DNA from: Pyropia yezoensis
Lineage: Eukaryota > Rhodophyta > Bangiophyceae > Bangiales > Bangiaceae
Reading direction: 5' to 3'
Assembly: GCA_009829735.1 (NCBI GenBank)
Contig: CM020620.1
Span: 20,000,020-20,064,019, forward strand
DNA length: 64,000 nucleotides
Part shown: piece by piece, positions 1-61,462 of the stretch
How the letters are laid out: each line of letters begins with the position of its first letter
How positions within the stretch are numbered: position 1 is the stretch's first letter
The notes under the pieces: generated by a model
Database searches by the model: none
The model's input: the letters and a program-made list of their open reading frames with translations, nothing else
What the model was told of the DNA's origin: nothing
Translations under genes and position numbers: made by a program

Positions 1-564
1 GACCCCCGCGGGGGGCTCGTACCGGGCGCCCCGCGTCAGCAGCAGCGGCCGGTGGATGGGCGGGCACGCCGTCACCCGGCGGGTGGGGGGCAGGCGGGCG
101 CTCCCATTCCCCGCCGCCGCCGGCGGCAGGTGGCGGAGGGCGTCTCCAAGCGGGTCCGAGTAGCAGTGGGTGGTGAGCCCCAGGGGCCCCTCGACGAGTG
201 ACCGCACCAGCGGGTGCTCCCCGCGGTGGAAGCGGTAGGCGCCCACGTCCACGGCGGGGGTGGCCCCAAACGCGGGCGGCAGCTCCGTGACGGTGCGGAT
301 GCGGCCGCCCGGCCGGGGGGACGCCTCAAAGACGCAGACGGTGGGGGCGGCGGCGGTGGCGCCGTCGCCGCCGCCGCCGCCGTCGGCCGCCGCGTCAACG
401 GCCAGCCGCCAGGCGGTGTAGGCGCCGCCAATGCCCGCCCCCACAATGACCGTGCGGCAGTTGTCGTACGGGCCCGCCACGGCCGAGCCGGCCACCGCCG
501 CCACCGCCGCCGCGGCGGTGGCCAGGCCGGCGGTGGTCACGGCGTGCAGCCGCCGCCGCCGCAT
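1..564 (-). CDS. FAD-dependent amine oxidase-like protein, 3' end outside window
   Basis: The minus-strand frame is open from an ATG at 564 to the window edge (188 codons). The N-terminus is MRRRR followed by a hydrophobic Ala/Val stretch to about residue 31, which reads as a signal peptide or membrane anchor. A Rossmann dinucleotide-binding motif follows (VIVGAGIGG, GxGxxG at about residues 42-47). After it come the acidic residue that normally binds the FAD ribose (FEAS, E80) and the PGGRIRT motif typical of flavin amine oxidases and related monooxygenases. A Gly/Asp linker interrupts the fold between strand 1 and strand 2. The start was chosen because it is the first ATG before the leader and has a poly-C tract (586-603) about 20 nt upstream. 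Family assignment is secure at the level of FAD/NAD(P)-binding amine oxidase-like. The substrate cannot be told because the C-terminal part is missing. Confidence 0.82.
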   Translation of the reverse strand, partial: MRRRRLHAVTTAGLATAAAAVAAVAGSAVAGPYDNCRTVIVGAGIGGAYTAWRLAVDAAADGGGGGDGATAAAPTVCVFEASPRPGGRIRTVTELPPAFGATPAVDVGAYRFHRGEHPLVRSLVEGPLGLTTHCYSDPLGDALRHLPPAAAGNGSARLPPTRRVTACPPIHRPLLLTRGARYEPPAGV

Positions 565-585
565 GATGATGACGCCGAAAAGGGT

Positions 586-603
586 GGGGGGGGGGGGGGG
601 GGG
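586..603 (-). promoter_or_regulatory. Poly-C tract (sense strand) upstream of the amine oxidase start
   Basis: An 18-nt G-run on the plus strand is a C-run on the coding strand, ending about 22 nt before the ATG at 564. It belongs to a recurring pattern in this window, in which several genes have such a tract in the presumed 5' leader. A role in transcription or translation is inference. Confidence 0.4.
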
Positions 604-3600
604 CGGTGAAAGAAAAGTGGGAGGGCGCCCGGCGGGCGACGGAAGGAAGCGGGATGGAAGAGAGGAGAGGGCAACAGGTTGGTCCGTCCGGGGTCACCAC
701 GGGCTCTCCCTGTTGGTGACGCCACGCGCCAACGCGGCGCCGCGCCGGCGGCGAGGTGCGTGCGGGCTGCGTGGCCGCCCCCACGCGATCCAGTCCCGCC
801 CGGGGGCGTGTCCGCGTCCACCTTGGACGCGCCGCCCCCGTCGCGGAGCACACCACCCGCAAGCCACGCTGCCCCTTGCCCCCCCTCGCCCCCCACCCCC
901 CCCCACCTCCCGGCGGGACCCCTTTTTATGTGCGCAACACAACAGCCAGCTAGCACAGCTGCAACGGCCGACGCCCGCGACACGCAAGGCACTGGTGGAC
1001 GGGGCGCGCCTGCCTGTGGCGGGGGCCCTTCCCCAGGGCCGCCCGCCCGCACGGTCGCCGCCGGGGGGCTGTGTGGCGCGGCCGTGTGGCCGTGTCGGCG
1101 GCCGCCCCGCGCGCCCGGTGACTGCTGCCCACCCGCGCCGCCCCGCCGGCTGTGGCCCCCCGCCCGAGCCGCGCCACGGCGGCAGCAGGGATGACGTCGG
1201 GGGCGTAGCGTAGCGGTGGAGGGGGCAAGGCCTCGCTCCCGGGGGTTCCCTCCCCCAGTGAGGGTGTGCGCGTTTTCGCCCGATGTAGCATATGGGACAA
1301 CGGCAAGGCCGGGGGGGGGGTGGCTGGGAGAGGTGTCCCCCGCAAGGAGGGTGGGGGGAGGTCGGTAGGTGCGTGGGTCGGGGTTGGGTGCGGGCGGGTG
1401 CCGCCGACCGGCCGGGGGTGTCAGCCGCCCTCGGGAGGGGGCGGGCGTCGGTTCATCACCCCTGTACAGTACACACTGTAGGTGGGCCCCCGAGCGGGCG
1501 CCGCCACGGGGGCACGCACCACCCCGCCGCCGGTGGACGGGCGGCGATGAAAAAAGTTGACTCCCCCCCCGCGCCGGTGAGAGAAAGACCCACCGGCAGC
1601 GGGCAACCCGCGGGGGGGGGAAGGTGCGGGTGGCGGCCCCCGCGGTGGCACTCCTGCTGCTGCACAGACAGTGGGGGGGGGGGACAAGGAAGCACAAAAG
1701 AGAATTCGGGAGGAAAGGGGGGGGGGCGGGAAGGCGTCGGCACGAGCACACGGCTGTGGCACGAGGACAAGGGGAGGGAAGGGAGCGGGGGGGCGCGCGG
1801 GCGCACCGCGTGTCTGAGGCGTTATTTCATGAGGGGGGCAAGGGGTGGCGGGGGGGGACACGTTCCCACCTGGTGTGCTGGGTGGGGGGAGAGGCGCGCG
1901 TCCACACCGCCCACGCGCGGTTGTGGGTGGAGCTGACGGTGAGGGCCGCGGCGGCCTGCTGCCAGTCCCTACCTCAGCGCACTCGCCACGCACACTCGCG
2001 CGGGACCCCAGCGCGACGGGGATCCGTCCACCAGATCCAACACTGCCCCCCACACAGTCTGGGCGGCCGCCGCCTCTGTGGATGTTCTTCCACTCCCCGC
2101 AAGGGAGGTCTGGCTCCCACACGACGCGGGGCACCAGCCACCTTGCGTGGTGCAGTAGGATCCACCCGGCTGGGGAGGGGAGAGAGGCGTGGGGGTGCTG
2201 GGGGGGGGGGGGGGGGGGCGGGCGGCCGCGCGCGTAGCGCCGCCGAGGCGGTGCCACGGCGTCCCCATGATGGGTGACACGCGGCGGGCGGCCGGCGCAT
2301 GCCATCCGGCTGCTCCAGAGGCGACCCAACCGCCCGATGGGGAGGTGGTGGCCGCCCATTGGTCCACAGTGCCTGACATGGTATGCGGACCCGGGGCGGA
2401 GGATAAAGAGGCGGGGGGGGCGGGGGGGGCGTGGGGGCATGGGATGGGGGAAAAAAAAGTAGAGGGAGAGATACGCCAGCTGCGGATGCCCCACAGGCGG
2501 GGGGTGGTGCGTGGTGGTGTTAACACATGCAATGTGTTGCGGGGGAGGGGGGGGAGGTGGACAAGACAAGACGCACCGCCCAGGGGACAGAGGGTTGTCG
2601 TGGGAAATTCCCCTGTTTCTCCCCCAGGCGCCACACTTTGCCCCCCGGCCAGCTGCCCCTCATGTCGAGGGATGGCCGGCCTTTGGGCGCTCCACGTGCG
2701 CATGTCAGCGGCCGTCTTCCGTTCCCCCCCCCCTTGCCGTCTTTCCGTTGCCCACCAAGGGGCGCGGCATGGACACGATAGAAAAGGGACTCGCCAGATA
2801 TGTACCCCACCGGCTGGAGTGGCGGCGGGCGGGGGGGGGGGGGAGACACGACGCGCTGGGTGGGAGGGGCAGCTCTGCAGAAAATTCTCGCTTTTTTCTT
2901 GTTTTTCTCCCCCGCCACGCCCCCAGAAAGAAGAACAGGGGCCAGGGTTGTCATAAGCTGAGAATGGCTCTCTCGTCGCCCTCACCCGCTCCCTCGCTGA
3001 ACGTAGATGCGGCGGACTGGGTTCCCCGTCCGCTTGCGCCTGTCCAGCCATACCTAGGGGTGCCAGCCCGCCAGCTTGGATGCGTACAATACACAGTGAC
3101 ATCTTGTCCCAGTCTGGGAGGGGGCACCGGCCGACATGATCAGGTACATAGCCGTTCCAGCCTGGCTGGGATCACCCCAGTCCTTCGCAGGACGTTGGCC
3201 CCCCCCCCCTCGGCTCCCGTCGCCTGGTCAGCCAGGTAGGCCCCCAAAGACGTGTGCGTGTCAAGCGGGGGGCCCGCACCCCTGCTCTCTCCCCACCCCC
3301 CCCCCTCCCCACCCTATCCACCACGGGGCGCGGACAACCACCTCCCGAATGACATTGGCGGCCGCTTCCCATAATCCAGTCACATAGAAGAGCGGCAGCG
3401 TTCCCCGCGCTGGCGTCTGGGCGACGAGTCACTGGCCACGAGGGTAGATATCTCCCCGTTGCAGGGGCAACGGGCGCAGCGGCACCGCGCCCGCGAGGAC
3501 AGCGCATCCCCCGCACCCCCCCTCCCACACTGGTGTATCCTACACGGCCAGGGGCGGCGGGGAGGGAGAGGGGCCCTCTGCCCAGCCCCCCTGCGACGCG

Positions 3601-4095
3601 CCCGCCGCGGTCTGGCACACCCCGCCGACCCCCTCCCCCCGCCCACACGGCCACGGGCAGCGGGCGGGCGCGGCGCGGTGCTTGACGGCAATGTATCCAA
3701 CGACCGCCACCCAGCCCCTCCCCCCCTCCCCCCCCCTGCCGCCCCATTTGCACGCAATCGTGTCGGGGCGGTGGGGGTGCCCACCGGGCAGTGGGGGGAA
3801 GACAACGACCCGCGGGAGTGGTCAGACGCCGACAGTCGCCGCCGCGGCGAGAGCCCCTTCCTCACTCCCCTCTTCACCCCTCCCGTCCCTCCTTGTCCAT
3901 CCCCACCACTCTGCGCCCAACACGTGCGCCCAACACTAACCCACCCACCAATCCAACCCGCCTGCACGCGGAAACAACAGGGACCACACGGCAGTGCGCT
4001 CACACCGGGGGTGCGCCTTCCCCCGCGCACCGCCCCCCCCCAGGGTCCACCACCCCCCCCAACACCACACGGGAAAGAAAGGGGACGCCATTCCG
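604..4095. other. Gene-poor GC-rich spacer
   Basis: About 3.5 kb with many G- and C-runs. Open frames exist on both strands in every phase, but they are Pro/Arg/Gly-rich, have no domain-like sequence, and look like by-products of high GC. No RNA gene or repeat was recognised. It lies between two divergently spaced minus-strand genes, so it probably holds the upstream region of the amine oxidase gene and the 3' flank of the next. Confidence 0.5.
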
Positions 4096-4865
4096 TCAGA
4101 CGCCGCCGGCCTCGGCGCCCACGCCCCCCCCCCCCGGGGCCAACGACCGCCGCCGCCGCCGCCGCTCCGCCGCCGTCACAGCATCGTCCAGGACGGCCAG
4201 CTCCCCCTCCAGCGCGCCCACAAACCGGGCGTACGCCAGCGCCAGCCGCGCGACGCCCACCCCCGTCGCCACCACCCCCGCCTCGACGGCCGCAACGGTG
4301 GCGGCAATGGCCGCCACGCCGCCCGCCCCCGCCGCCCCGGCCGCCGCCCCCGCCGCGGGCCGGGGACCTCTGCCGGGGGTGCCCCCCCCCGCCCCCCCCC
4401 CGCCCCCCGCACCACCCACCACCACCACCCCGTCGGGCGGGAGCAGCGCCGCCACGTCCGCGTCGGCGAGCCCGTCCCCCGCCGCGGGGCCGGTGCGGAG
4501 GAGCTCCGCCGCCGTGTCGGCGGCGGCGGCCAGCCGCGGCGCGGCGGCCGCAATGCCCGCCGCCGCCGCGGCGGTGGCGTGGGCGGCGGCGGCGGTGGCG
4601 GCGTCGGCGTCGGCAGCCGGCGGCGGCGCCGCGGCGGCGACCGCCTCGAGGTGGGGGAGCGCGTGGACGGCCGCGACCGCAGTGGCGCCGGCGGGGCCGA
4701 GCGCGCAGAGCAGCCGCGAGCGGATGGCGGGGAGGGAGACGGCCAGCGGGGGGGAGGCGGGGGGGGGGGGTGGTGGGGGGGGATGCGCCCGGGTGGGGCG
4801 CCCAAGACGTGGCGCTCGAGCGCCTCGACGCGGGATTCCAAGGCATCCAGGGTGGCCGCGTCCAT
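4096..4865 (-). CDS. Ala-rich protein with N-terminal coiled coil, frame break in poly-C
   Basis: The ATG at 4865 opens with MDAATLDALESRVEALERHV, a strong heptad coiled coil. The frame then enters a run of about 12 C residues near 4757-4785. After it, the convincing coding pattern continues in the next frame: SLPAIRSRLLCALGPAG, then Ala-rich helices, then YARFVGALEGELAVLDDAV, ending at a stop at 4096. A one-base difference in run length joins the two parts into roughly 250 residues. No GT-AG intron fits the gap, so a run-length error or a true frameshift is likely. A poly-C tract at 4896-4909 lies just upstream of the start. The first 20 residues resemble, from memory, the start of dynactin p24 (DCTN3), but the rest is too Ala-biased to confirm. 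Function is unknown. Confidence 0.5.
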
Positions 4866-5504
4866 GGCGTGAGGGGAAATGGAGAGGGGCGGGGTGGGGG
4901 GGGGGGGGGAGCAGGGACAGGGGGAAGGGGCGAGAAGGGGGGGGGTGGCGTGAAGGGACGGGGTTGGGGGATGGAGAAGGGACGTGGTGGGGGTGTCGCA
5001 GGGACAGACCGCGTGGCGCACCGAGACGACCATTGGTGCAAGGTGGAATTGGATTCGACAGAGCGATCAAAGGGGATCGGGCCCTACGAAGTCAACGGAC
5101 AGAACATGCGTTGAAAAGTCCTCGTGAGGCGAAACGCTGCCTTCAGCTTCACGCCCGCCCCCGCTGGCCCTGCGTAGCTGCTGCAGGCTCATGCCCCCGC
5201 CCGTCTTCACCCCCCGCCACCGATGCAGTTTATAGGGCGTTTAAGCACAGGCGCCCGCCCGTCGCCTTCCCACTCCCAGCCGTCTCAGGGGTCGCGACGG
5301 GTATGTGCATCATTCGGATGCAGCTCCGCGGCTTCCGTGCTTCACCTTTCCCCCCCCCAATCCCCCCCCCGGGGACAGCGCTGTTGTGCCCCATCGTCAA
5401 GGCACTGAGAGCGCCGCGGCTGGGGTGCTGCCTGCACTTGAGCCGCCCGCCGTCAGCCATGCCGGTCGCATTGCCGTCGACGACAGCGTCGAGCAGCGCG
5501 GCTG
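4866..5504. other. Spacer without recognised gene
   Basis: It contains the poly-C/G leader of the upstream minus-strand gene and mixed-composition sequence. A TATA-like tttataggg lies near 5229. No supported coding region was seen, although HEAT-like residues may begin before 5505 in another frame. Confidence 0.4.
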
Positions 5505-7570
5505 ATGCTGCGGCCGACTCCCCCGGCGGCGACTGGCATGTCCGTCGAGACGGACGACGCTGTGGGTGCGGCGGTCGCGGGCGTGCTCCCCCTCTGGCAG
5601 GCACACCTGCTGGAGCTGCTTGATGAGCTGCGCAGCCACGTCACCCTCGTTCAGAGGGGGTGCCAACGTTTTAAACGTATTTGTGTGCCCGACGGGGAGG
5701 GCGCTACGGTGGATGGCAAAGCCGGGCAGTCCGTGCTGAGCCACCGCGGCGGGTCGCTGGAGGAGCTGCCATTTGGTGGCGTCCGTCTCGGCGGCGGCCT
5801 TGCGGGAGATTGTGCGGTCGGGGCCAAGGGCGACGCTGACCCTGTCGGGGCCCTCCTCCAGCGCCTCTCCTTCGCCGTCATCGACCCGTCGGCAGGCGTC
5901 CGCGCGGCGGCGGCCACCCTACTCGGGGCACTGGCGGCGGTGGCGCCGCCCGCCGTGGTGATTGACAACGCGGCCGAGCTCTCCCGCTCCTCTTCTGCTG
6001 GCTGGTGGACGTGGACGCCATCTCCGCCGCCGCCGCCCCGATGGTGCATCGTAGGCTCCCCGAGGGGGGCTCGTCGGCGGCATGGCCCGCCCGGCCGCAG
6101 TACGTATGTGGTGTGTGTGGGTACATGTATTGTACAGAGGTCGATACGATGCTACCGTCGGGACACGGACACGGGTGACGGCTGCCCGGCTGGAGGGGGA
6201 GGGGCGAGACCAGGGGACCAGGAAGGGAGGCGGCGGCGGCTCTCCAGCCCATTTTGCGGAAGGAGATTGAGGACAAGGACAAGGGGTGTGCGGGGGGGAA
6301 TAGGCTCGCCCCCCTTCCCCCCAGGGAGGGGGGCAGCACCCTCCAGCATTGCCAATCTTCACGCGCCGTGTATTGCTCCCAGACCATGCGAACGAGGCAT
6401 GAGTGTGTGGCTGAGCGGCTGTATGGCGGGACTGCCGGCTGCCTTTGACAGTGGTTCCGCTCAGTATAAAGGGGGGCGGGGGAGGGGGGGGGGAGTGGTG
6501 ACAAGGGCGGGGAGCTGGGCGGGGGGGGTCGGCAGGGCTGTCAACGTCGTGGCTCAGCGACGCGTCCACGCGGGGGAAGGCACAGGAGGGTCCCCGGCGG
6601 AATTTTCCGACCTTGCGGAGCATGAATGGCAGCAAGACATTGGGGAAGAGGGGGGAGGGGCGGGAGGGCGCGGCAGCGGGGGGTGATGGCAGGTGTAACG
6701 AGGAGCACCCGACGCCGCGCCACGAGCAGAGACAGCGGCGGCGACGATGGCGACAGCGCCGCCGTCCCCCCCCCCACCAAACGACGACACGTGTTGTTCT
6801 TTCGATACGATACGATACATTTACTATGTCACTGCACCAGCACCTCGGGGCCACTGCCGGCGGCTCGGCGTGGCAGGGCAGTTTGCTCTGGACCGACACC
6901 CTCCGTTCCCCCCCCCCGCCCCTCTCACGCGCGCGCGGGATCGCGCAAGCCCCCTACTCCTCCTCGCCCCCCCCCCCCCAGTACCAAATGTCCCGCACGT
7001 ACCGCCCGGCCTTGGCCCACCCAGCCACCACCGCCGCCGCGCCGGCCACCCCCCCTACCGCCTGCCCCCCGTGGGCCGCGAGCACCTCCACCAGGGCGTC
7101 GTGGACGCCCGCCGCCATACCCGCCCCGTCTCCACACACATACACCGAACACATAGCGGTGGTCACCATGGCAGCGTCGTTGCCGGTGCGGGCGCTTTTC
7201 GAGCACATCTCCTACCTCCGCCAGCACCGACTGTTGCCCCAGGCGGCGCTTTGCAGACCCCTCTCGGCAATGTGGAGCTCGTTGAGGCGGCGCGCGCGCC
7301 CCCCCTGCCCCCCTGGCTGGGGACGTTGGTGTTCGTGCGTTCCAACCCGCCATAGGCACCTGGCTGCACTGTCTGTCGCTGGCGGGCACGTTCCTCCGGG
7401 TCCTCTCCGAGCGCCTTGCGTGGCAGGTGTGCGCTGCGGCGCTCACGGCGCTGCGGGCGTTGCTCACCAAGGCGGGCGTCACAAACCAGCCGGCTGCCGT
7501 CAAGGCGCTCGCCGACGCGAGCCGGCTGATGCGCTTTGCGGTTGCCCGCCGCCGCTCACCGCCAAAGGAT
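5505..7570 (+). pseudogene. Decayed HEAT-repeat protein (HEATR6-like?) fragments
   Basis: Several short stretches read like helical-repeat protein but sit in different frames with stops between. One is VLPLWQAHLLELLDELRSHV near 5580-5640. Another is DPVGALLQRLSFAVIDPSAG followed by VRAAAATLLGALAAVAPPAV near 5840-5960. Others are LFEHISYLRQHRLLPQ near 7195-7245 and VCAAALTALRALLTKAG near 7425-7480. The middle stretch matches the pattern of HEAT repeats in HEATR6/DUF4042-type proteins. The interval also contains microsatellite-like and intergenic-looking sequence. Either this is a pseudogene, or it is a gene with several introns that I cannot place. A fragment of another gene lies on the opposite strand inside it, which favours decay. 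Confidence 0.35.
6954..7152 (-). pseudogene. Orphan C-terminus of a CPR/sulfite-reductase-type diflavin reductase
   Basis: The frame reads VYVCGDGAGMAAGVHDALVE, continues with VLAAHGGQAV, and ends in GRYVRDIWY plus a short G-run tail to a stop at 6954. This is the NADPH-binding C-terminus of cytochrome P450 reductase, CysJ and related flavoproteins. Recognisable features are the CGD motif, the helix MAxxVHDALVEV, and the terminal (K/R)RYxxDxW. No upstream FMN, FAD or NADPH-binding segments were found on the minus strand up to 8.9 kb. Either it is the last exon of a gene with distant exons, or a relic fragment. The absence of any earlier motif within 1.7 kb in an intron-poor genome favours a relic. 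Confidence 0.55.
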
Positions 7571-27387: not shown

Positions 27388-27616
27388 GTAGCAAGTGCTG
27401 GCGGAATGTTGACCAATACGTCACGTGCCGTCGTCGACCTTGTCGCTGTGAGGGTCAAAACACACCATAAAAACGCTCTCGCTGTGAGCATCACAACGCA
27501 TATATTTTTTCTCGGTGTTGTTGCTCTGGCCGAGACGCATGCACGAGAAAGTGCTGAATGTGAAAGCGGCAATGTCGACCAGTTGTACGCCAATGACATG
27601 GGAGTATTCCGGCGTA

Positions 27617-27643
27617 TGGTACGTTGCACAAAAAAGATACATC
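27617..27643 (+). repeat. Left terminal inverted repeat of the 6.8-kb element
   Basis: Starts TGGTACGTTGCACAAAAAAG and continues ATACATC. It pairs with 34411-34437 at about 25 of 27 positions and matches the left end at 59022. Confidence 0.75.
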
Positions 27644-28332
27644 GGGCATTATTTTCTTTCTTCTCCGGCGTTGTTCGGGCCACACCCCTCGGCCAATCAG
27701 GTGCCTCGGGAATTTGCCCCGGTGTAATGGACTGGTCCTGCTTGATGGTGGGCCCCTTTCGGGTGTGGTGTGCACGCTCATTAGGGCACGTCTTGACGGC
27801 GGAACTCGGGCGTGTCTCAGACAAAAAACAGAGGCAGAGAGCTTTCTTATTGGTTAGAAGAGGAAACATGCTTCGCGCACTCGATGAGCCGGGCGTCTGG
27901 GGCACAAGAACTTACTCAGACATTTTCAAGTAAAACGAGTTGCAGACATGCCTCGTTTGTGGTCGGAAATGCAGTGTGCTTTTCCGACCACAACAAAACA
28001 CGCCGTCGCCGCAAAACAAGATCCGCAAGGGCGGACGAGAGAATCCATTTGGGGCTCTCCGAGCCTCCAGCCTCCTGCCGTCCACAGACAGATCACGATC
28101 TGCGAGGCGCGCTGCAGCCCGTGGTCTCGCCCCTCCAGCCCACTCGAAGCGCGAGAGCGGTTCGGGCTCCCAACAGTGTGGCTCCGTTTCGAGGTGCCCC
28201 CAACCATCCAGGCGTGACCCCCGTCATTACTCCCAGCTTCACGACCCAGTCATCATCCTCCCTTCTCATTCTCTTCTGTTGCGTTGCTGTTTTGTTGTGC
28301 ACCGCCACCACCGCCCTAACCCCCCACCAACG

Positions 28333-29817
28333 ATGAACTCTACCACTTCTCCTGGCTTGGCGGCGCAAGCTCCAACACCTACTGCGCCCGCCAACGAGGC
28401 TCCGGCGACCACGGGCCTCCCTGGGATTCCGGCGCTACCGGTCGATTCCGGTCCCGACACGCTCCCGGCGCCGAGGCCAGGTTTTGACTTCGCTAAGGCC
28501 GAGCTCTACCTATCGCGGCTCTCGTCCATGGACCTTCGCCAAGTGCTACGTGTCCTCAGGATCAAGGGCAAGATGGGCGCCCCTGTCAAAGAGAAGCGAT
28601 CCAGTGCCCTGGAGATGATGCGCGCGAGGGACATGGGCGACGAGGAGGTCGAGGCGTTGGTGGACGACTTGGACATCGAGTCGGCCAGCGCGCACTCTGG
28701 CCTGGCTCCGAGGACCTTGAGCAGCCTGCTCACGGTGGTCCCTGCAGCCTCCTCACCCGCCCCGCCGCCGACTGCGGACTGTGCTGTCCCTGCTGTCAGC
28801 AACGGCCTCGCGGTGGGGACCAGATGGGCGGCTGACACAGCATCCAGCAGTATAGCGATTGGCGGGGCGTCTGGAGCGCAAGGAGGCTCGGCCAATCCGT
28901 TAGGGCGGCCCCCACAAATTCCCCGGGGCTCTACAACGGGGATTTGTGGGGCGAACCCTGGCCCGAGCAGGCGGGCTTCCCAATCCCCGTCAGTTCCGGC
29001 CGCAGCCGAGCCCGGGCGCGCGGCTGGCGCGAGGGAGCCCGAATTTACGGCAAATGACGTCGCACGACTTTTTCACGTTGTGTGTGATCCAATGCACAAG
29101 GACGCTTTGCGAAAGGCTAACCAGCCCATGTCAAGGGCGGACCTCGACAGGGAGCATGTGAGCTTGTAAAGCTCCGTTCTCGGCCCCCTCTACAACCGCG
29201 AGTCCTACCGCCCTGAGCCCCCCGCACTGATTGACGGAATGATGGACGTCGACCTGCGGGGGATGGACCCGAGCAAGCACTCCGGCCAACGTGACCTTTC
29301 TAAGCTGGAGGGTCATTATCGCACCTTGCGGTCGCTGTACACCGTCGCAGTTGCAAACTACACGAGGTCGGGCCAGAACGAGCCCGTTTTCAAGAGCTTT
29401 GTCAGAGGCGACCACCGGCTACTTTATATTCACTGTTTGCTGAAAGGGAGTGACGCGGCCGACTTTGTTCTCCGCACAGTTCCTACCGGTGCGCAGTGCG
29501 AGGTTGGCTTGCCCAACCGCACCCGCGTCGAAGACACGGAGCCAACCCCTGCCAAACGCGCCAAGGTCGCCCACGTCGCTGTCCAAGGACTGAGCGGTCT
29601 GACCAGCGCGCTGGCTGGCTTCGCAAAGGCTATGGCGCCGGCAAGCTCTGCCGGTACGACAGCCGCAGAGATATATGACAACGCCGAGTCCATTGGGGCG
29701 GTCACGAAGCAGCTACGGGCCGCTCGCCAAGATCTTCTTGCCGACCCGACGGATGAGATTGCCGCCCGCGTTGTGAAGCACTTAGAGTTGCAAGTGTCAA
29801 AGCTGCTTGGGTGAGAG
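28333..29817 (+). CDS. Transposon accessory protein, SAP-like motif and C-terminal coiled coil
   Basis: Starts at the ATG at 28333 after a C/T-rich leader. The N-terminal 50 residues are Ala/Pro-rich. A helical motif follows (YLSRLSSMDLRQVLRVLRIK, then GAPVKEKRSSALEMM) whose leucine and glycine spacing resembles a SAP DNA-binding motif. A Ser/Gly/Pro-rich middle is next. The second half (from about 29,305) has LEGHYRTLRSLYTVAV, GDHRLLYIHCLLKGSDAADF, a basic KRAKV patch that could be a nuclear signal, and a C-terminal helix (IAARVVKHLELQVSKLLG). One in-frame TAA at 29167 interrupts the frame. A phase-0 intron from GTGAGC at 29158 to TTTCTAAG at 29304 (147 nt) would remove it. Composition is lower in GC than the neighbouring host genes. 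It presumably partners the transposase, replacing the Myb-like second protein of other Harbinger elements. Confidence 0.55.
29158..29304 (+). other. Probable intron in the accessory gene (147 nt)
   Basis: Donor GTGAGC and acceptor CCTTTCTAAG are both in phase 0, and the interval contains the only in-frame stop of the gene (TAA at 29167). A shorter alternative acceptor would be at 29,202. A true nonsense mutation is the other explanation. Confidence 0.4.
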
Positions 29818-30047
29818 TAAAGTTGGAGCCTAATATATTTTTTCCACGCTCGAGTCGAGGTGGGACAGGGAGCGAGCCGTCGCGCACGGCGCCCGACGTC
29901 CATGATGCATGATAAACCAGCACACCGTGTGCTGGTAGCTTCCCCAAGAAGACGGGCGAGCGACCATATTGTCAACTGTTTGTTTACTATTTCTCATCGC
30001 GGCAGATGATGTGGTCTCCGTGCTTCACTCAAAAAAAAAGAGCTTCA

Positions 30048-31507
30048 TTAGGCAGGCCTACGGACCTGGTTCACCTTAAGAAACCTGGTCATAGCCACGC
30101 GGAGAGGGCACTTCTCTCCATCCCTACGACGATGTCGCAGTCTTGTGTCGTTGTCATGTCGATCCTGGAACAGCACTTCCCCAGACCCGCCAACCGTGTC
30201 ATCTTGTAAGACCGGTGGAACAGCGCTGCTCCGGTCAATGAGAAAGTTATGGATCTTGGCACAAACGCGAATCGATCGGGCCGTGGGAAGAGAGAAGAGA
30301 ATAGGCTTCCACAGGATGCCCCACCGGCCCACGAGCTGCCCAAATGTCTGCTCGACAAAAATCCGAGCAGATGACTGGTAGTAGTTAAAAGAGTCTCGCT
30401 CCCACGGCAGGTTGCGTCCCGGCCACGGTGTCAATACTCTCCTCCCAGCCACGTACGCGTCGTCTGCAGCTACCCAGTATCCGTCGGGCAGTGAACCGTC
30501 CTCAGCCAGGTGCCTGGAGAGACCGCTCGCGGAAAAGGCGACGCTGTCGTGGCATGATCCCGTTGCAATCGCCGACAAAAACTGCACCTTAAAGTCTGCA
30601 CCTACAGCGGCCTGCACGTTCACAGCGAAAAAACCCTTCCTGTTGTAGTACGCAATCGGATTGGGTGCATCGCGTACAGATGGCCGCCGGATGCGGGCAG
30701 CCAGGCCATCGATGGCGGACACGCAGCCGCGCAGTGGGTTGCGCCCGTCACGTGCGAAAAGATGACTCTGTCGGTCAAAGTCCGATTGGGTTGTGGGGAA
30801 TAAAATGTTGTTTAGCTCAGGTATGCAATCCAACACGTTGAGAACCTTCGCATAGTAGCAAGATAAATGAAAACGTCGACTAGTTAGAACATCCTCCATG
30901 ATACCTGCCTCAGGGTACTGCTCGCGCAGCACAGCTTGTAAGCCCCACATATGAAAGACACACGCATACCGATGCAGCACAGCACATTCCGTGCACCATC
31001 CCCCCCACGCCACCGCACGGCATACCCGGACACACATACCTGATGAAACACATCAAAGACGGTGCACCGTCCCAACCCAAAGGCCAGCATGCAGTCCAGG
31101 TACGACGCCCCAGCCAGCAATCGAAGCGCCAGCGCCAGTCGACAGTCGGCGGGGATAGGCTGGCCCGCCGCCAGTATAGCCATAGCATGATTAGTCCGCA
31201 ACCCATCTCTCACCAGCTCCAGTAATGCATTAAAGTCGTTGCGCTCCATCCGGAAGAGAAGACGAAAGTCGTTGTCTGATAGGGCCTTGAGAGTGTCTGA
31301 CATGCCCAGACGTGACCGCCGGCCGATCCCAGTATTGCGGGGACGCGGCACCGCCATCGCAACAGCATTGCTAAGAACATCAACTGCAGCTGTCACGGTC
31401 ACCAGCGCAGCAAACCTGGCAGCGGCTGACGGTCGCATCCGAGCGTTGCGGCCGATCGTTTTCCGGGGCACGCCCCGAAGGGAACCAGGTCCAGAGCCAG
31501 GAGGCAT
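30048..31507 (-). CDS. PIF/Harbinger-family transposase (DDE_Tnp_4, HARBI1-like), one intron
   Basis: Cut-and-paste transposase of the surrounding element. Exon 1 is 31507-31040 (156 codons), with the N-terminal helical domain LSDNDFRLLFRMERNDF and the HTH-like stretch LAFGLGRCTVFDVFHQ. A 194-nt intron runs from GTATGT (31039) to CTATGCGAAG (30846), with a CTAAC branch-like site near 30,884. Exon 2 is 30845-30048, in phase 0, giving 421 residues in all, normal for the family. The catalytic acidic triad is visible: D202 in SAIDGL, D284 in AADDAY, and E321 in FVEQTFGQL. The family GSxHDS motif (GSCHDS) and YYNRKGFFAVNVQA are also present. The gene has no internal stop, so it may be functional. 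An alternative with a short middle exon is possible but less economical. Confidence 0.85.
30846..31039 (-). other. Intron of the transposase gene (194 nt)
   Basis: GT-AG intron with consensus donor CAG/GTATGT, a CTAAC branch-like site about 40 nt before the acceptor, and phase 0 on both sides. Removing it joins the helical N-terminal domain to the DDE domain. Confidence 0.65.
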
Positions 31508-32559
31508 ACTCCAAAAAGAAAGAGCTTTTCTGTTGAGTCATAAGTGGACGAGCACAGAGAGACACGCGAGCAGATATGAGTTGAAGAGGACACACAAAAC
31601 ATCAGCAAAATTAGAGTTCGAGAAAGATTCACGGCGTGGCGGTACGCGTCAGTATGAACACGCTAGGTCGTCTCCAGCCCAACATGACGCAACGGCGGCG
31701 GTCAAGAACACGCCAAGCACATAAATAAGGCATGGAGAACGTACACTGGTGCTGAGTTGCGAAGAAAAAAAACTCGTGGCTTGACGCAGCAGAGAGTCTT
31801 GACGAGACGCGTGCTCGGGCAGGGCACGGGTGGTAGATCACCGTGGGAGCAGGCTTGACAGCACGTCCGAGGGAGAGGGAAAGAGCACGCAATGACCAAC
31901 GGCGCGGTGACTGTGGGGGGGGAAAAACGGAGTCGATCGGTGGGGTAGAAGTGATCAATCAGTGAGAGGGATCGGGGAGGTGGGGGCGGGGGGCGGGGGA
32001 GGGGGGGGGGGGGGGGGGGGGGGATCGGGGAGGTGGGGGAGGGGGGGGGGGGACGGGGGGGGACGGGGGGGGGGAGGGAGTGCCGCGCGGGGGTGGCCCT
32101 GGGGCTGCGGAAGTACGCCAAGGTGACAGGAGAGACGGTCCGGCCGTGGGAGGATTGTCCCTCGCGTAGATCACCAGCGGCTACACACTGACGTGGAAGA
32201 ATACCGGTCCGAGGAGAAGAACGAGCTCATCGTGAGGGGCGAGCACGGGCACCGGACCGGACGGTGTGGTGTCCCTCGTTGTGGACCCGTGATGTGTGCG
32301 CGCGGCCGCAGGCACGCCGTCTCTCCTCGCGCAATCGTGGTGTGCAAGAAGGTAGCCCACCCCTCGCCGTCGTATCTCCCAGTCACCAACAATTGCTCGT
32401 GCACGTTGTCTAGTCGTCAAGACAGGGCGTGTCTGGCTGCGTGCGCCCACGGAATTACAGCCTGTGTTTTGTGCATTCGCAGACACTTTCCAGATGTCGT
32501 CAAGACACGCCCTTAGTCAGGCTTTTGGGAAAGTGTGCAGGGTTTTGACGGCCGCCGCG

Positions 32560-33150
32560 GTGGCCACGCCAGGGGTGTCGCCGGTGCTGCGGTCGGCGTC
32601 GGCGACGGCGGCGACGGTGGCGACGGCGGCGACGGAGGTGGCAGTGGCGGCGGCGACGGCCGTGGCGGTGGCGACGGCGGTAACGACAGGGGTGGCGGTG
32701 GCGACGGTGGCGACGGTGGCGACGGTGGCGACGGCGGCGGCGGCGGCGTCGGTGACGACGGCCGTGGCAGTGGCGATGGTAGCGACTAGGGTGGCGCAGG
32801 CGACGCAGTGGCGGGGGCGACGGCCGTGCCGGTGGCGACGGCGGTGGCGACGCGGTGGCGGGGGCGACGGCCGTGGCGGTGGCGACGGCGGTGGCGACGC
32901 GGTGGCGGGGGCGACGGCCGTGGCGGAGGCGACGGCGGTGGCGACTGGGGTGGCGGTGGCGACGGGGTGGCGGCGACGACGGCGGCGGCGGCGGCGTCGG
33001 TGGCGACGGCCGTGGTGGTGGCGACGGCGGTGGCGACGGGCGTGGTGGCGGCGACGGGGGTGGCCGTGGCGACGGGGGTGGCCGTGGCGACGGGGTTATC
33101 CGTGGCGACGGGGGTGTTGGTAGCTTTGGCTGTGGAGTGGGGGGCTTGGG
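32560..33150. repeat. GC-rich minisatellite inside the 6.8-kb element
   Basis: Tandem and interspersed units of the type GGCGACGGCGGTGGCGAC, with longer units of about 60 bp around 32,790-32,940. Frames through it read as Val-Ala-Thr or Pro-Val-Ala-Thr repeats. I treat them as by-products of the repeat because the phase differs between strands and no flanking coding sequence exists. Confidence 0.75.
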
Positions 33151-34410
33151 TTTGTGGCGGTGGAGACGGAGAGCTTTCTCTGACGGTCGGGTCGGCCACG
33201 TGTTTGGGAGAGGGGGGGAGAGGTTGGCAGTATGTGGGGGGGGGGGGTCGTGGGCGGTGTGATTTATGTGACGGGATGGGAAGCGTAGGTGGTGGCGGTG
33301 TTGCTGGTGGGGTTGTTAGGGGCGGTGATGCCGCCAGCGCTGGGTGAATCGCCGGCGTCGGCACGATTGTTTTTTTATAGTAGGGCGGTCATGGGTGCCT
33401 TGTCGACTATGTCATAGCCAGGCAAGGTATCCCAGAATGTCTCGTGCAGGAAATCGGTGGCGGGAGTGTGGAGCGCGGCGGAGCAACGCACAATGCATGC
33501 AGACTACCCCCTCTCTCGCACCCCCGCGCAAAAGAGAACAGGCGCTTGTTTTCCCTATTTTCTTTTGCGCCCCGGCCCTAGACCACAAGAGCCAAGCAGA
33601 CCGTCGCGTTCCGCTTTCTTTTTTTTTTCCCTCCCGCCTGCCTCCCATTATCATCCCCCTCCCCCCGCCTCGCCCACACGCCCGGGGTGCGTTTTCCTCA
33701 CCCTGGCACGCCCACCACAGCTCATCTGACGTTGAGGCTGGCGGCACCTTCTCCCTGGTTACCCCGTCCCCCCATCCCCCGAGCCACGTTGGATGCACCG
33801 AGGCTGGCACCACCTAAGTCGCCAACAATGGACCTGTCGTGCCAGGCGGGAGGAAAGGGTGGAAGGGGTTGCTTGGCACTGGCTGGCGGGAGGGGCAGGA
33901 CGATGAGAGGGAACCAGAAGGCGAGAGAGGCGCTTTCCGCTTCCTCATCGGGGACCGTCGGGGCGCACGCAAACGGTCTCGAAGCATGACTAACGCATAA
34001 GCACCAGTCTTGCTCATCGAACAATCACACGAGCGCATTGGTTGGAACTATTTCCTCTCGCGAGACCGTTTTATACACGAGGTCTCGCGAGCGAAAAAAG
34101 AATCTGAAAAAAGTGCCCTCCAGCTGTCCCCGCGAAGCTCCCCTATCTCGACTACCCCCCTGCCAAGCCTCAGTTAGCACATGGGCCCGAATCAGCCCCC
34201 GAGCAGTGCAAATCAATGCGAAAAGAAAGGCCCCATTTCAGGTTCGTCAGCATCTGGTCCACTCAGGGTGTCCCTCAGAGCGGTACACAAACCAGGAGAC
34301 CCAAGGACCTCATTAGTTCGCAAGGACCTCTATGATCCTTGTGTCAGCATAGCGGCCGTGGACCCCGTCACGGCCGATGTCCTGCCCGGGCCCGAGCCGA
34401 GAAGAACCTC

Positions 34411-34437
34411 GATGTATCTTTTTTCTGCAACGGACCA
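34411..34437 (-). repeat. Right terminal inverted repeat of the 6.8-kb element
   Basis: Ends CTTTTTTCTGCAACGGACCA followed by TA. It is the inverse of 27617-27643 with about two mismatches and homologous to the right end at 61460. Confidence 0.75.
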
Positions 34438-36525
34438 TAGCACCAATCATACGCGGAGGAGAAAGCATTGGAAATACCCTCCTCATCGTTGGGTGACTGG
34501 GGGACCTTCTCAGCCCCTGAAAAAGGATAATTCTGGGCATAAAACAGACACGGAAGGCAAGAAGCACACGCTTGCAGGCCACAGTTTTTGTACACGAGGT
34601 GAAGACTCTGTTCTTCGCCGTCTGTGAGAAGCTGATGGTTGTAGCATAGATAGTGCGTGTGTTGCACTACGTGGAAGAAAGCAAGGAGAACGCTGTGTCA
34701 AAGACAATCGGCCTCCACAAGGTCACCGTGCGCAATCCGGGCCCGGTCAACGTTGAAAGCATTGGTTAACATTCCACCACCACGTGCTACGGGCTCAGGT
34801 GCCATGGACATACGAGATTCCCAATTCAGCCGGCCAATAGAATCTGACCTCTCTGTTAACGTGGGGACCTCGTGCCGAGCTGTCGACCTATCCTGGCCAC
34901 ACCTGTTAACGGATGGCCCCAACCGCAGCAAGGTCGTCGGGCATCAGCCTATAGAATTTTTGGGATAACCTCATGACCTCGACCACCGTGAAAAAAGACA
35001 TTAAAAAGTAATATAGTATCGCTTTTGGAACACATGTTGGCCTCGGGTAGGTTTCGAGCAGTCGCCTCCCGTCACCATTGCCACCTGGGCTACGCCCATC
35101 TCTCCGCCCCCGCACCCGCCCCCTCTCTCACTGTCCATCTGGACCATTTTCGCGCTCTTCATCCACAGGCACCCCAGTGGCCCCCCCGCATCACGCATGC
35201 GGGGAGGCCCCCGTTCTCCCGCCACCCCTCCGAGAGTCGTTGGCACGTCCGCAGCTCTGTGTACGCATGAGTTTCGACAGCCACGGACCAAGGCATACCC
35301 CGGCAGCGGCTGGGCTGGAGCGCTCCCTCTTCATCATTGTATGTCTCCGCTAAAGTGCTCCACCTGAAGGTAAAAAAACGTCAGTCCTACAGGCCGCTCT
35401 CTTCACCGCATGTCAGGTAGATACATGGCGAGCAGGAAATAATCAAATGTTTAAACTTTTCAGATGTCCCCGGAAGTTCTAATCAAAATTCAAAAGCGTC
35501 CCTAATCAAAGCACAAATCTCGTATACAGTCTTTCTCCATTGTTGGGCACCCTGTGTGGCGACCGTAAGCCTAAGGATTGTAACTTAATTCCGCCCTCTG
35601 ATTGGTCGGTGACAACGATCGAATGCTGACACATGCGTTGATCTCACCGTAGAGGTCGGTCGACCTGCAGTGGTTACTAGACACCGTGCCCAAGAAAGGA
35701 TGTCACAGCAATGGAGAAAGACAGTATGAATGGCACCCGAGCCATCCGGCTCAACGTGCGGCCAGGAGCAATCTGATATTACCAATACGTGGACCATCCA
35801 AAGGGCGTTAGCGCGACAACAAGCGTGGCCGCTTCATAAGGAGCTTCGCCAGCAATTCAGCATGAAAACATGACTCCTTTGCATCGCTTCTTGGAACTTT
35901 CGCCTCGAGACTGGGTGATCCTCTTTCAGCTGCACTTGGCCGTGGAAGGGCTCTGGTTGCTCCCACGGGGCCAAGGTCGGGCCGTCTTTCTGCGCTGGTC
36001 GGGCGCCCGTCCTCCTGGCAGGTCCCATCACACCCACCTCACCCCCACACTCCCCACAACCACCAGCAGCCGCCGCCCGAGCTCGGTGCAGTAGAAGGGG
36101 GGGGGGGACCGCGGCGCCGTGCTCCCCCCCCCCACCCCCCCCCTCGGCGGTCATTGCCGTCGCTGTACTGGGCGGCTGCCGTTGCCGCTTTCGTACCAGG
36201 CGCGACGGCGGCGGCGCGGCTGCAGAGGCGGCCACCGTGCGTCCACCGCGCCCCGGGTGGGCGGCGGCGACGGCGGGAGGTGGCGTCGGCAGCTTTCTGC
36301 GGCTCCCGCTTGCAACCCCACGTCCCCTTTGTGTCCATCGTTGTTCTGGCTGCCCCTACGACGTGACGGGCGCCGGCTTGTGGGCCCGCGGTCGACAGGT
36401 TTCCTCCCCCGTTCTGTCCTTCCCTTCACGTAATTCATCCCGCTTTCCATTTTTCTTCTCTGTCTTCTCTCCCCCCCTTCTTGTTTCCCTCCAGCTCCTG
36501 ACTTGGCCGCTCCCCCTTTGTTCCC
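34438..36525. other. Spacer, AT-richer first half, pyrimidine-rich leader at the end
   Basis: 34.4-35.9 kb has balanced composition and no ORF of note. The last 90 bases before 36,526 are C/T-rich (including a CCCCCCC run at about 36,470), which fits the promoter-leader pattern of other genes here. A TTATTTCCG-type AT patch lies near 35,430. Nothing else was recognised. Confidence 0.4.
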
Positions 36526-59019: not shown

Positions 59020-59021
59020 TA

Positions 59022-61460
59022 TGGTACGTTGCAGAAAAAAGGTACACGGAGCGTTCTTTTCTCATTCCACGGAGAACCTTCGGGCCACATACCTGAGCCA
59101 ATCAGGTGCCTGGACGGCACGCCCCGGTGAAATGCGCCCCACATGAGCGGTGGTGGCTCCGTTTCGGAAAACCATGCCAGGACGCTCATCAACTGGAGAG
59201 CGAGTACTGCGCGTGGGGAGGGCCACGATTCGGCGGGCGGGGGGGGGCGGTGCCGCGGCCGGCGTCGACGACGGCAGCATCGTCGGCAGCATCGACGGCA
59301 GCATCGACGGCTGCGGCGACAGTGACAGCGGCACGACGGCGGCGGCAACGGCGGCAACGGTGGCGGCAACGGCGGCGGCAACGGCGGCGGCGACGGCGGC
59401 AACACCGGCGGCGTCAACGGCATCTGCGGCGGCAAGGACAGCGATGGCGACGTGGACGGCGATGGTGGCGATGACGTTGCGTTTGGGGGGGGGGGGCGGG
59501 GGGGGGCGGGGGCGGCGCCGGCAATGGCGACGGCGACGGTGCCGGTGGCGTCGTCTCCTCTGATTGCGGTCGGCGCGGCGGTCAAGAGTGTGGCGGTGGC
59601 CACCCCGTCTGTGCCGGTGCCCACGGTGGCGGCCACCTCACCTGCCGCGGCGTTCGTGGTGACGGCCGCTGCATCCGACGTGGCGGCAGTGGTGACCGCG
59701 GAGGCGGCGGTGGCGACGTCGGTCACGGCGGCGGCGGTCGACGCGGGGGCGGAGGTGGCCATCGACGATACGGCGGCCACGGCGGCCGCCGCGGCAGCCA
59801 TCGAGGCGGTTGCAAAGACGGGCAGGCCGTAGGCGGCTGTGGTAACGTGTTTTGGGGAGGGAGGAGACGGGGACGGGGTTTGGGGGCGGGGGGGGGGGGG
59901 GGACGGCGGACAGACGGCCGTGTGGACTTTCTGGTGGGGGTAAGAAAGGCCACAGGAAGCTATGGCTACGTTTTTTGCGGGGGCGGTGGTGCCGCTGGCG
60001 TTGTGGGGAAGGGGGAGGAGGGCGGCAGGCGGCCGCGGGGATGGTGCGCAGGGGGAGGGTGGGGGGATGGTGGGGGCGCTTCGTGAGGGGGTCGGGCAGG
60101 TCGCTGGGGACGTCGGGGTTGGTGTTTTGGCGGGGGGGTGTGGTGGCGGTGGCAGCGCTAGGGGTTGGAGGGGGAGGGATCCAAGGGCTGGTAGCTTCCC
60201 TTTTTTGGAGGGGGAGGGCCGGGGATGTTCATGGCTTTCTGCGTTGGGGGCATTCTGGTGACGCATGGCGGCGGGATTTTTTTTGGGCGAGGGCGGCTAC
60301 GGCGAAGGCGGGCGGTTTGATAGCTGGATGGGGGGGCGGGGGGAGGGTCCGTCGGCGCAAGGCGAAACGTGCAGGGCAAAGTCACTGTTTGAATTGGAGT
60401 GGAGCGGGAGGCGGCGAGAATAGTGGCGGTGGTGTTAGCCGCCGGCGCCGGCGCCGGCGACAGCGCCGGCGTTTTTCTTTCCGTTGCGAGCGCAGGGGGG
60501 CAGGCGCGGTGGCTCCGCTGGGCAGAAGGGATATGAGGGACGGGGCGGGTGACTTCTGGTGCAGCGGGAAAGGGAGGAAGATGGTGTTGGGATGGTGCAG
60601 GGCGTCGTGCGGGCCGACTTTGGGGGGGGCCTTGGGAAGGTCTGCCCGATAGGCCAAACAGCATCGAGGCACTTGTTGCTCAAAGCACGAAGTGCCTTGA
60701 TGCGATGTCGTGCACTTCCGCCCCTTCTCGAGGCATGAACCCCCCCCACGCGACGCTCACGGGGGACGCCTTCCCAGTTGCTTCCTGGGTCCGCGCACTG
60801 TCGGCGCCTGTGGAAAATCCACTCCACGTGGGCACGCCCCCTCGCACTGCACTCCACCTGCCGAAGGTGGAACCGCCAGAGGCAAGCGGGCTGGGGGGGG
60901 TTGCCTCCCCAATGCGTCCAGTCCAGGAGAGGGGTCCAGGAGGGGACGGGGGGGGAGAGGCTCCTTCATCAAGAGGCAGGGGAGGGCCTGTCACAGATGC
61001 CTGAACAGGCAAGGAGCACATGAGGACCAGGCTTCTTCGTGATCCAATCAAACGAGCCCATGACATTGAACATTTTCCGCAAGAACAGCGATCTCAAGAA
61101 CAGGGACCCGCTTACGGAAAGAGGTCCTCAATACAATGGCCTCCAGCCTTCCGCGGGCTCCTCCCCAAAATCGAGCACCCCTCTTCCAAGCCTCAGTTAG
61201 CACATGGGTCCGGGCCGACCCCAGAGCCGGGGAAAATAGTGCGAAAACGATGGCCCCATTTCAGGGTTGACAGCCACCGGTCCACCCAGGGTGCCCCTGA
61301 GAGAGGTACACCGGCCGGGAGACACACAGACCTCATGAGTTCTCGTAGGGCTCTGTCATCCTTCTGTCAGCATGGCGGCCGCGGACCACGTCATGGCCGG
61401 TCTCCTGCCCGGGCCCGAGCCGAGAAGAACCTCCACGTTTCCTTTCTGTGCAACGCACCA
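59022..61460. mobile_element. Non-autonomous derivative of the 6.8-kb Harbinger-like element (2.4 kb)
   Basis: Begins TGGTACGTTGCAGAAAAAAG and ends with the inverse form (CTTTCTGTGCAACGCACCA). It is flanked by TA at 59020-59021 and 61461-61462, as for the 6.8-kb element. The left 130 bp (including TCGGGCCACA, GCCAATCAGGTGCCT and GCCCCGGTG) match 27617-27730. The right 430 bp (including CCAAGCCTCAGTTAGCACAT and CCTGCCCGGGCCCGAGCCGA) match 34,020-34,437. There is no transposase or accessory gene. The interior instead holds a GC-rich minisatellite (59,270-59,810) and G-rich sequence. It would depend on the enzyme encoded elsewhere, presumably the 30048-31507 product or a relative. Confidence 0.75.
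59270..59810. repeat. GC-rich minisatellite in the 2.4-kb element
   Basis: Units of the types GGCGGCAACGGCGGCAACGG and GACGGCAGCATC are followed by Val/Ala-codon-like GTGGCG repeats. It occupies the same relative position (middle) as the minisatellite of the 6.8-kb element and has similar codon-like periodicity. Confidence 0.7.
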
Positions 61461-61462
61461 TA

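Follow-up and report, generated by a model that had tools for sequence, protein, structure and literature searches.

A PIF/Harbinger transposon nested in a TA-flanked non-autonomous element accounts for an apparent 2-bp Harbinger in the red alga Pyropia yezoensis

Can a Harbinger-type transposon duplicate two bases, TA, upon insertion? The question is raised by a 64,000-nucleotide stretch of the Pyropia yezoensis genome (assembly GCA_009829735.1, contig CM020620.1, positions 20,000,020 to 20,064,019; hereafter the window, numbered from its first base), in which a DDE_Tnp_4 transposase gene and a convergent second gene on the plus strand lie between matching inverted termini at 27617 (TGGTACGTTGCACAAAAAAGATACATCG) and, on the reverse strand, at 34437 (TGGTCCGTTGCAGAAAAAAGATACATCG), alike at 26 of 28 bases and each with TA outside. 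An earlier note on this DNA had read 27617..34437 as one Harbinger-like element bounded by these TGGTACGTTGCA ends and TA, possibly a distinct ISL2EU-like lineage with 2-bp duplications, and it had correctly recognized the termini, the convergent gene pair as a two-gene Harbinger-type unit, and the TA flank at both ends of both copies in the window (27617..34437 and 59022-61460). According to the passages on this group in PMC4482050, the target duplication of PIF/Harbinger elements is TWA, and in most candidate autonomous members the transposase is accompanied by a Myb/SANT protein, a second-gene DNA-binding protein whose function is described there as unknown.

We searched the window's own genome (107.5 Mb, 11 contigs) with the 6,821-bp stretch 27617..34437, scoring the best 40 of 2,964 candidates such that copy counts are lower bounds, and the query split into two parts that occur independently of each other. 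The core, query 165-4899 (window 27781-32515), stands alone at at least three other genomic places; in alignments spanning 27784 to 32512, the three solo copies are 99.2, 99.1, and 98.7% identical to the window copy, and TTA lies on both sides of the core in all four. Other copies of the transposase unit thus end at the equivalents of 27784 and 32512, and not at the outer termini. Many loci carry the remaining parts (query 1-168 and 4890-6821) and lack the core, and 26 of them were fetched (L005-L030). The left side of the junction was matched in 25 of these loci, and in 24 of the 25 readable core-free junctions GCTCATTA is followed directly by GTCAGG, so that a single TTA stands in place of the window's two. 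At the single exception (L010, C3:17843312-17848147), an outer-family copy carries other sequence after the same TTA that was used by the inner element, and the expected continuation is absent from the locus.

Taken together, the solo cores with TTA flanks and the single TTA in core-free outer copies indicate that the TTA was duplicated when a 4,729-bp element (27784-32512), to which both genes belong, inserted there. The locus is very probably a nested pair of cut-and-paste transposons from different superfamilies, with a PIF/Harbinger element inside a ~2.1-kb non-autonomous, TA-flanked element (Table 1), and the "2-bp Harbinger" is an artefact of this nesting: the outer ends surround the transposase because two nested transposons were read as one. 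In the order of events that we propose, the ~2.1-kb element would have entered a TA site, leaving a copy of TA on each side, and a 4.7-kb PIF/Harbinger element would later have inserted at a TTA within it, duplicating the TTA, with the DDE_Tnp_4 transposase presumably cutting and joining at its own GGGCRYGTCTTGACG ends.

Table 1. Coordinates of the nested elements, their genes, and a further outer-family member in the window
Feature	Position	Strand	Basis
TA, outer target duplication, left copy	27615..27616	.	flanks; family duplicates TA at empty sites
Outer element, left inverted terminal repeat	27617..27644	+	26/28 bases match right end
Outer non-autonomous TA-flanked element, left part (up to and including TTA target)	27617..27783	+	found without core elsewhere
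TTA, inner target duplication, left copy	27781..27783	.	single TTA in 24/25 inner-free outer copies
Inner PIF/Harbinger element, 4,729 bp	27784..32512	- (transposase strand)	solo at 3 other places, 98.7-99.2% identical
Inner element, left end, GGGCACGTCTTGACG	27784..27798	+	sequence of ends
Partner gene, 493 codons, putative SAP-like N-terminus	28333..29814	+	in-frame stop 29167-29169 in window copy
DDE_Tnp_4 transposase gene, 446 aa, putative intron 30921-31039	30048..31507	-	domain match
Inner element, right end, GGGCGTGTCTTGACG (minus strand)	32498..32512	-	sequence of ends
TTA, inner target duplication, right copy	32513..32515	.	flanks and inner-free copies
Outer element, right part	32516..34437	+	found without core elsewhere
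Outer element, right inverted terminal repeat	34410..34437	-	matches left end
TA, outer target duplication, right copy	34438..34439	.	flanks; empty sites
Second, diverged outer-family member, 2,439 bp	59022..61460	+	same kind of ends; TA at 59020-59021 and 61461-61462

What, then, do the TA flanks represent? Within the window, the 12-base end alone gave 6 matches at two mismatches against 3.27 expected, which is not beyond chance, and in the genome the 22-base end pattern TATGGTNCGTTGCANNAAAAAG gave 404 matches against 0 for a reversed control, with places taken from the best 100 of the 404. From 51 end combinations listed, 25 were dropped as pairings with internal matches and 26 were kept by judgement, and TA flanked both sides in 24 of these 26 outer end pairs judged genuine. 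To look at empty sites, the flanks of 23 outer copies were joined by a single TA and searched in the genome: six of the joined flanks matched sequence that spans the join, and eight places so identified were fetched; at seven of these, derived from five insertions (L006, L008, L020, L024, and L025), the flanks overlap by exactly TA, while at the eighth (L077) the left side is unresolved. The outer family therefore duplicates 2-bp TA, and the duplication that the earlier note suspected is real and is that of the outer family. Both outer-family copies in the window are non-autonomous.

The inner element, in turn, is a PIF/Harbinger with an ordinary 3-bp TTA duplication, an instance of TWA, which removes the basis for a distinct 2-bp lineage. 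Its end pattern (GGGCACGTCTTGACG and GGGCGTGTCTTGACG) together with TTA gave 27 genome matches against 5 for the control, with up to two mismatches allowed, and the 12 pattern matches with at most one mismatch include all eight ends from the four inner copies. The product of the minus-strand gene (31507-30048) matches DDE_Tnp_4 (PF13359 at 7.9e-23; 81.3 bits, cut-off 24.8), in agreement with the transposase proposed previously, while the splicing proposed with it would take the form of a GT-AG intron giving 446 aa. Relatives found within the same genome, using a 451-residue version of the protein, are between 33 and 99% identical to it. Separately, another Harbinger-type transposase, which shares 42% identity with that of the inner element, is present as eleven equal-scoring copies with open 421-aa frames (C1:6273989, C1:18937812, C2:6381636, C2:6942031, C2:6957425, and six others), and perhaps represents a young, recently active family.

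Compared with the superfamily at large (PHIS, as covered in those passages of PMC4482050), the inner element shares the DDE_Tnp_4 domain, the two genes, the TWA target (here TTA), and the short inverted ends, but differs in a partner whose N-terminus appears SAP-like and in which no Myb/SANT domain is recognized. ISL2EU, described in the same passages as a two-gene relative within the superfamily with a DDE transposase, an AT duplication, and THAP and YqaJ (PMC4482050), was rejected for the inner element: TTA, not AT, is duplicated here, and neither THAP nor YqaJ was matched at E 1 or better in the inner transposase or partner, with YqaJ also giving no match in a genome search that recovered its control in 2 of 14. 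NuwaII, with its C|TNA|G target, was rejected because the four inner copies have A/G, T/C, C/C, and A/A as the bases preceding and following TTA; Spy is given in the same passages as making no target duplication (PMC4482050).

How durable is the association between the transposase and its unusual partner? The partner gene in the window is interrupted by an in-frame stop (29167-29169), and no stop was counted in the copies at L002 and L003. Among 34 partner loci (merged matches), a convergent transposase is no more than 5 kb away in 25, and, seen from the other side, the partner is present at 17 of the 18 transposase loci of at least 55% identity and at 25 of 76 over all transposase loci. Some of the remaining transposase loci have a partner too diverged for an identity search; for example, at L056 a related partner protein, read by eye and by profile, sits beside a 41%-identical transposase. 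The partner has thus been kept with the transposase across diverged lineages, and this is no accident. Among public proteins, 15 relatives were found at E<=0.001, none with an assigned function, and the six with a stated organism are all hypothetical proteins of Pyropia yezoensis. In other Harbingers, a Myb-like partner binds at the ends and recruits the transposase. Because of this role, the partner described here may, by analogy, bind DNA at or near the ends and bring the transposase there.

We also asked which enzyme might mobilize the outer family. Three end pairs on C1, among the matches listed, are spaced 14 to 18 kb, and one of these long relatives (L061-L062, C1:18441100-18455300; ~14 kb) has both ends equal to the left end in the window over 30 bases, as well as near-identical sisters on C2. 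The outer family is most likely of Tc1/mariner type, a link that is by position and not proven: the long relatives sharing its ends apparently encode a DDE_3 transposase of Tc1/mariner type, which may mobilize the non-autonomous element through the shared ends. The transposase at L083, for example, matches PF13358 at 5.6e-13, has a sub-threshold helix-turn-helix match, and has 33 residues from the second D to the E. In likeness to Tc1/mariner, the outer element duplicates TA, and its long same-ended relatives sit with DDE_3 transposases, one of them with this 33-residue spacing; in contrast, the two copies in the window are non-autonomous, and the ~14-kb relative contains other conserved sequence.

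Several side observations concern these long and outer-family copies. Tc1/mariner-type elements of ~14 kb and more would be unusual. The L061-L062 element has a conserved cysteine-rich frame with no Pfam match, with DDE_3 matches nearby in its relatives, and an open frame just inside its end (L061:38-907) has a sub-threshold TB2/DP1/HVA22 match (6.7e-5; 23.2 bits, cut-off 27.2), possibly a captured host gene. The two wider end pairs (C1:20455035-20473210, 18.2 kb; C1:40719472-40735283, 15.8 kb) are known from their ends alone. Two 71-base stretches, L081 and L082 (C3:11892235-11892305 and C3:11911090-11911160), are perfect reverse complements including flank, and the 18.9-kb interval between them resembles a large inverted duplication more than it does a single two-ended element. 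Finally, the outer-family copy at L030 (C3:16566681-16571504) has a right flank other than TA and abuts another, diverged end of the same family; this copy lies 1.6 kb from a DDE_3 match.

Two other accounts of the locus as a whole need to be weighed against this one. A single element running from 27617 to 34437, that is, a lineage of Harbingers duplicating 2-bp TA, would place both genes between matching inverted ends with TA flanks, just as they are found, but it leaves unexplained why the core occurs solo with its own ends and TTA flanks and why the outer element occurs without it, its single-TTA site intact in 24 of 25 copies; we regard it as hardly credible. Alternatively, the nesting may be correct and the outer family may belong to some other TA-duplicating superfamily, with the nearby DDE_3 genes being separate insertions or passengers. 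The long copies were not followed from end to end and DDE_3 genes are common in this genome (at least 150 scored matches), which leaves room for such an account, and the positional test gives it some further ground: among 15 places matching the conserved gene of the L061-L062 element (four 177-base rows left out), five have no DDE_3 nearby. Yet at 10 of the 15 places (9 distinct, as two share one) a DDE_3 match, from the best 150 of 308 candidates, lies within 7.5 kb of that gene, whereas in 2,000 random placements such places averaged 0.32 and never exceeded 3. Further, DDE_3 sits at a like position in sister copies, and TA is the target of Tc1/mariner elements, all of which makes another superfamily an unlikely home for the outer family.

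For the inner element, the rival concerns the partner, which could be an ordinary Myb/SANT-type Harbinger partner that has diverged beyond the reach of Pfam and carries an extra SAP-like domain on its N-terminal side. The SAP-likeness itself, claimed in the earlier note together with a lack of Myb likeness, comes from a fold model in the window's family and from Pfam in one distant relative, such that the N-terminus is predicted to be SAP-like, and only tentatively so for the family to which the window's copy belongs. Behind it lies a conserved C-terminal helical domain whose 175-residue model has helices at trihelix-like positions (H5-15, H43-52, H87-110), and by eye the C-terminal sequence pattern is also trihelix-like, both of which would suit a diverged Myb-type module. 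Set against this, Myb/SANT had no Pfam match in any of the proteins scanned, as the earlier note had anticipated, and the model is of low confidence (mean pLDDT 51) and has no fold support; a genome search with PF12776 recovered 0 of 14 controls and was hence uninformative. We give the ordinary-Myb account somewhat less than an even chance.

A long-lived red-algal PIF/Harbinger lineage with a partner that relies on a SAP-type DNA-binding domain, either replacing the usual Myb/SANT or fused before it, so that a different module recognizes the ends while the TTA target is kept, is an interpretation that we hold at only slightly short of even. No description of a SAP-partnered Harbinger was found in the literature searched, with Repbase, which is rich in red-algal entries, lying outside that search, and such a lineage in Pyropia yezoensis looks like a modest variant.

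Together, these results do away with a seeming exception among Harbingers, the duplication of 2-bp TA, and explain how it arose by nesting. If true, the SAP-like partner would be of moderate importance, as it would make it possible to ask how end recognition and contact with the transposase are divided between the parts of a partner protein. Of greater value than this main finding may be the long relatives with TA flanks that lie close to Tc1/mariner-type transposases.
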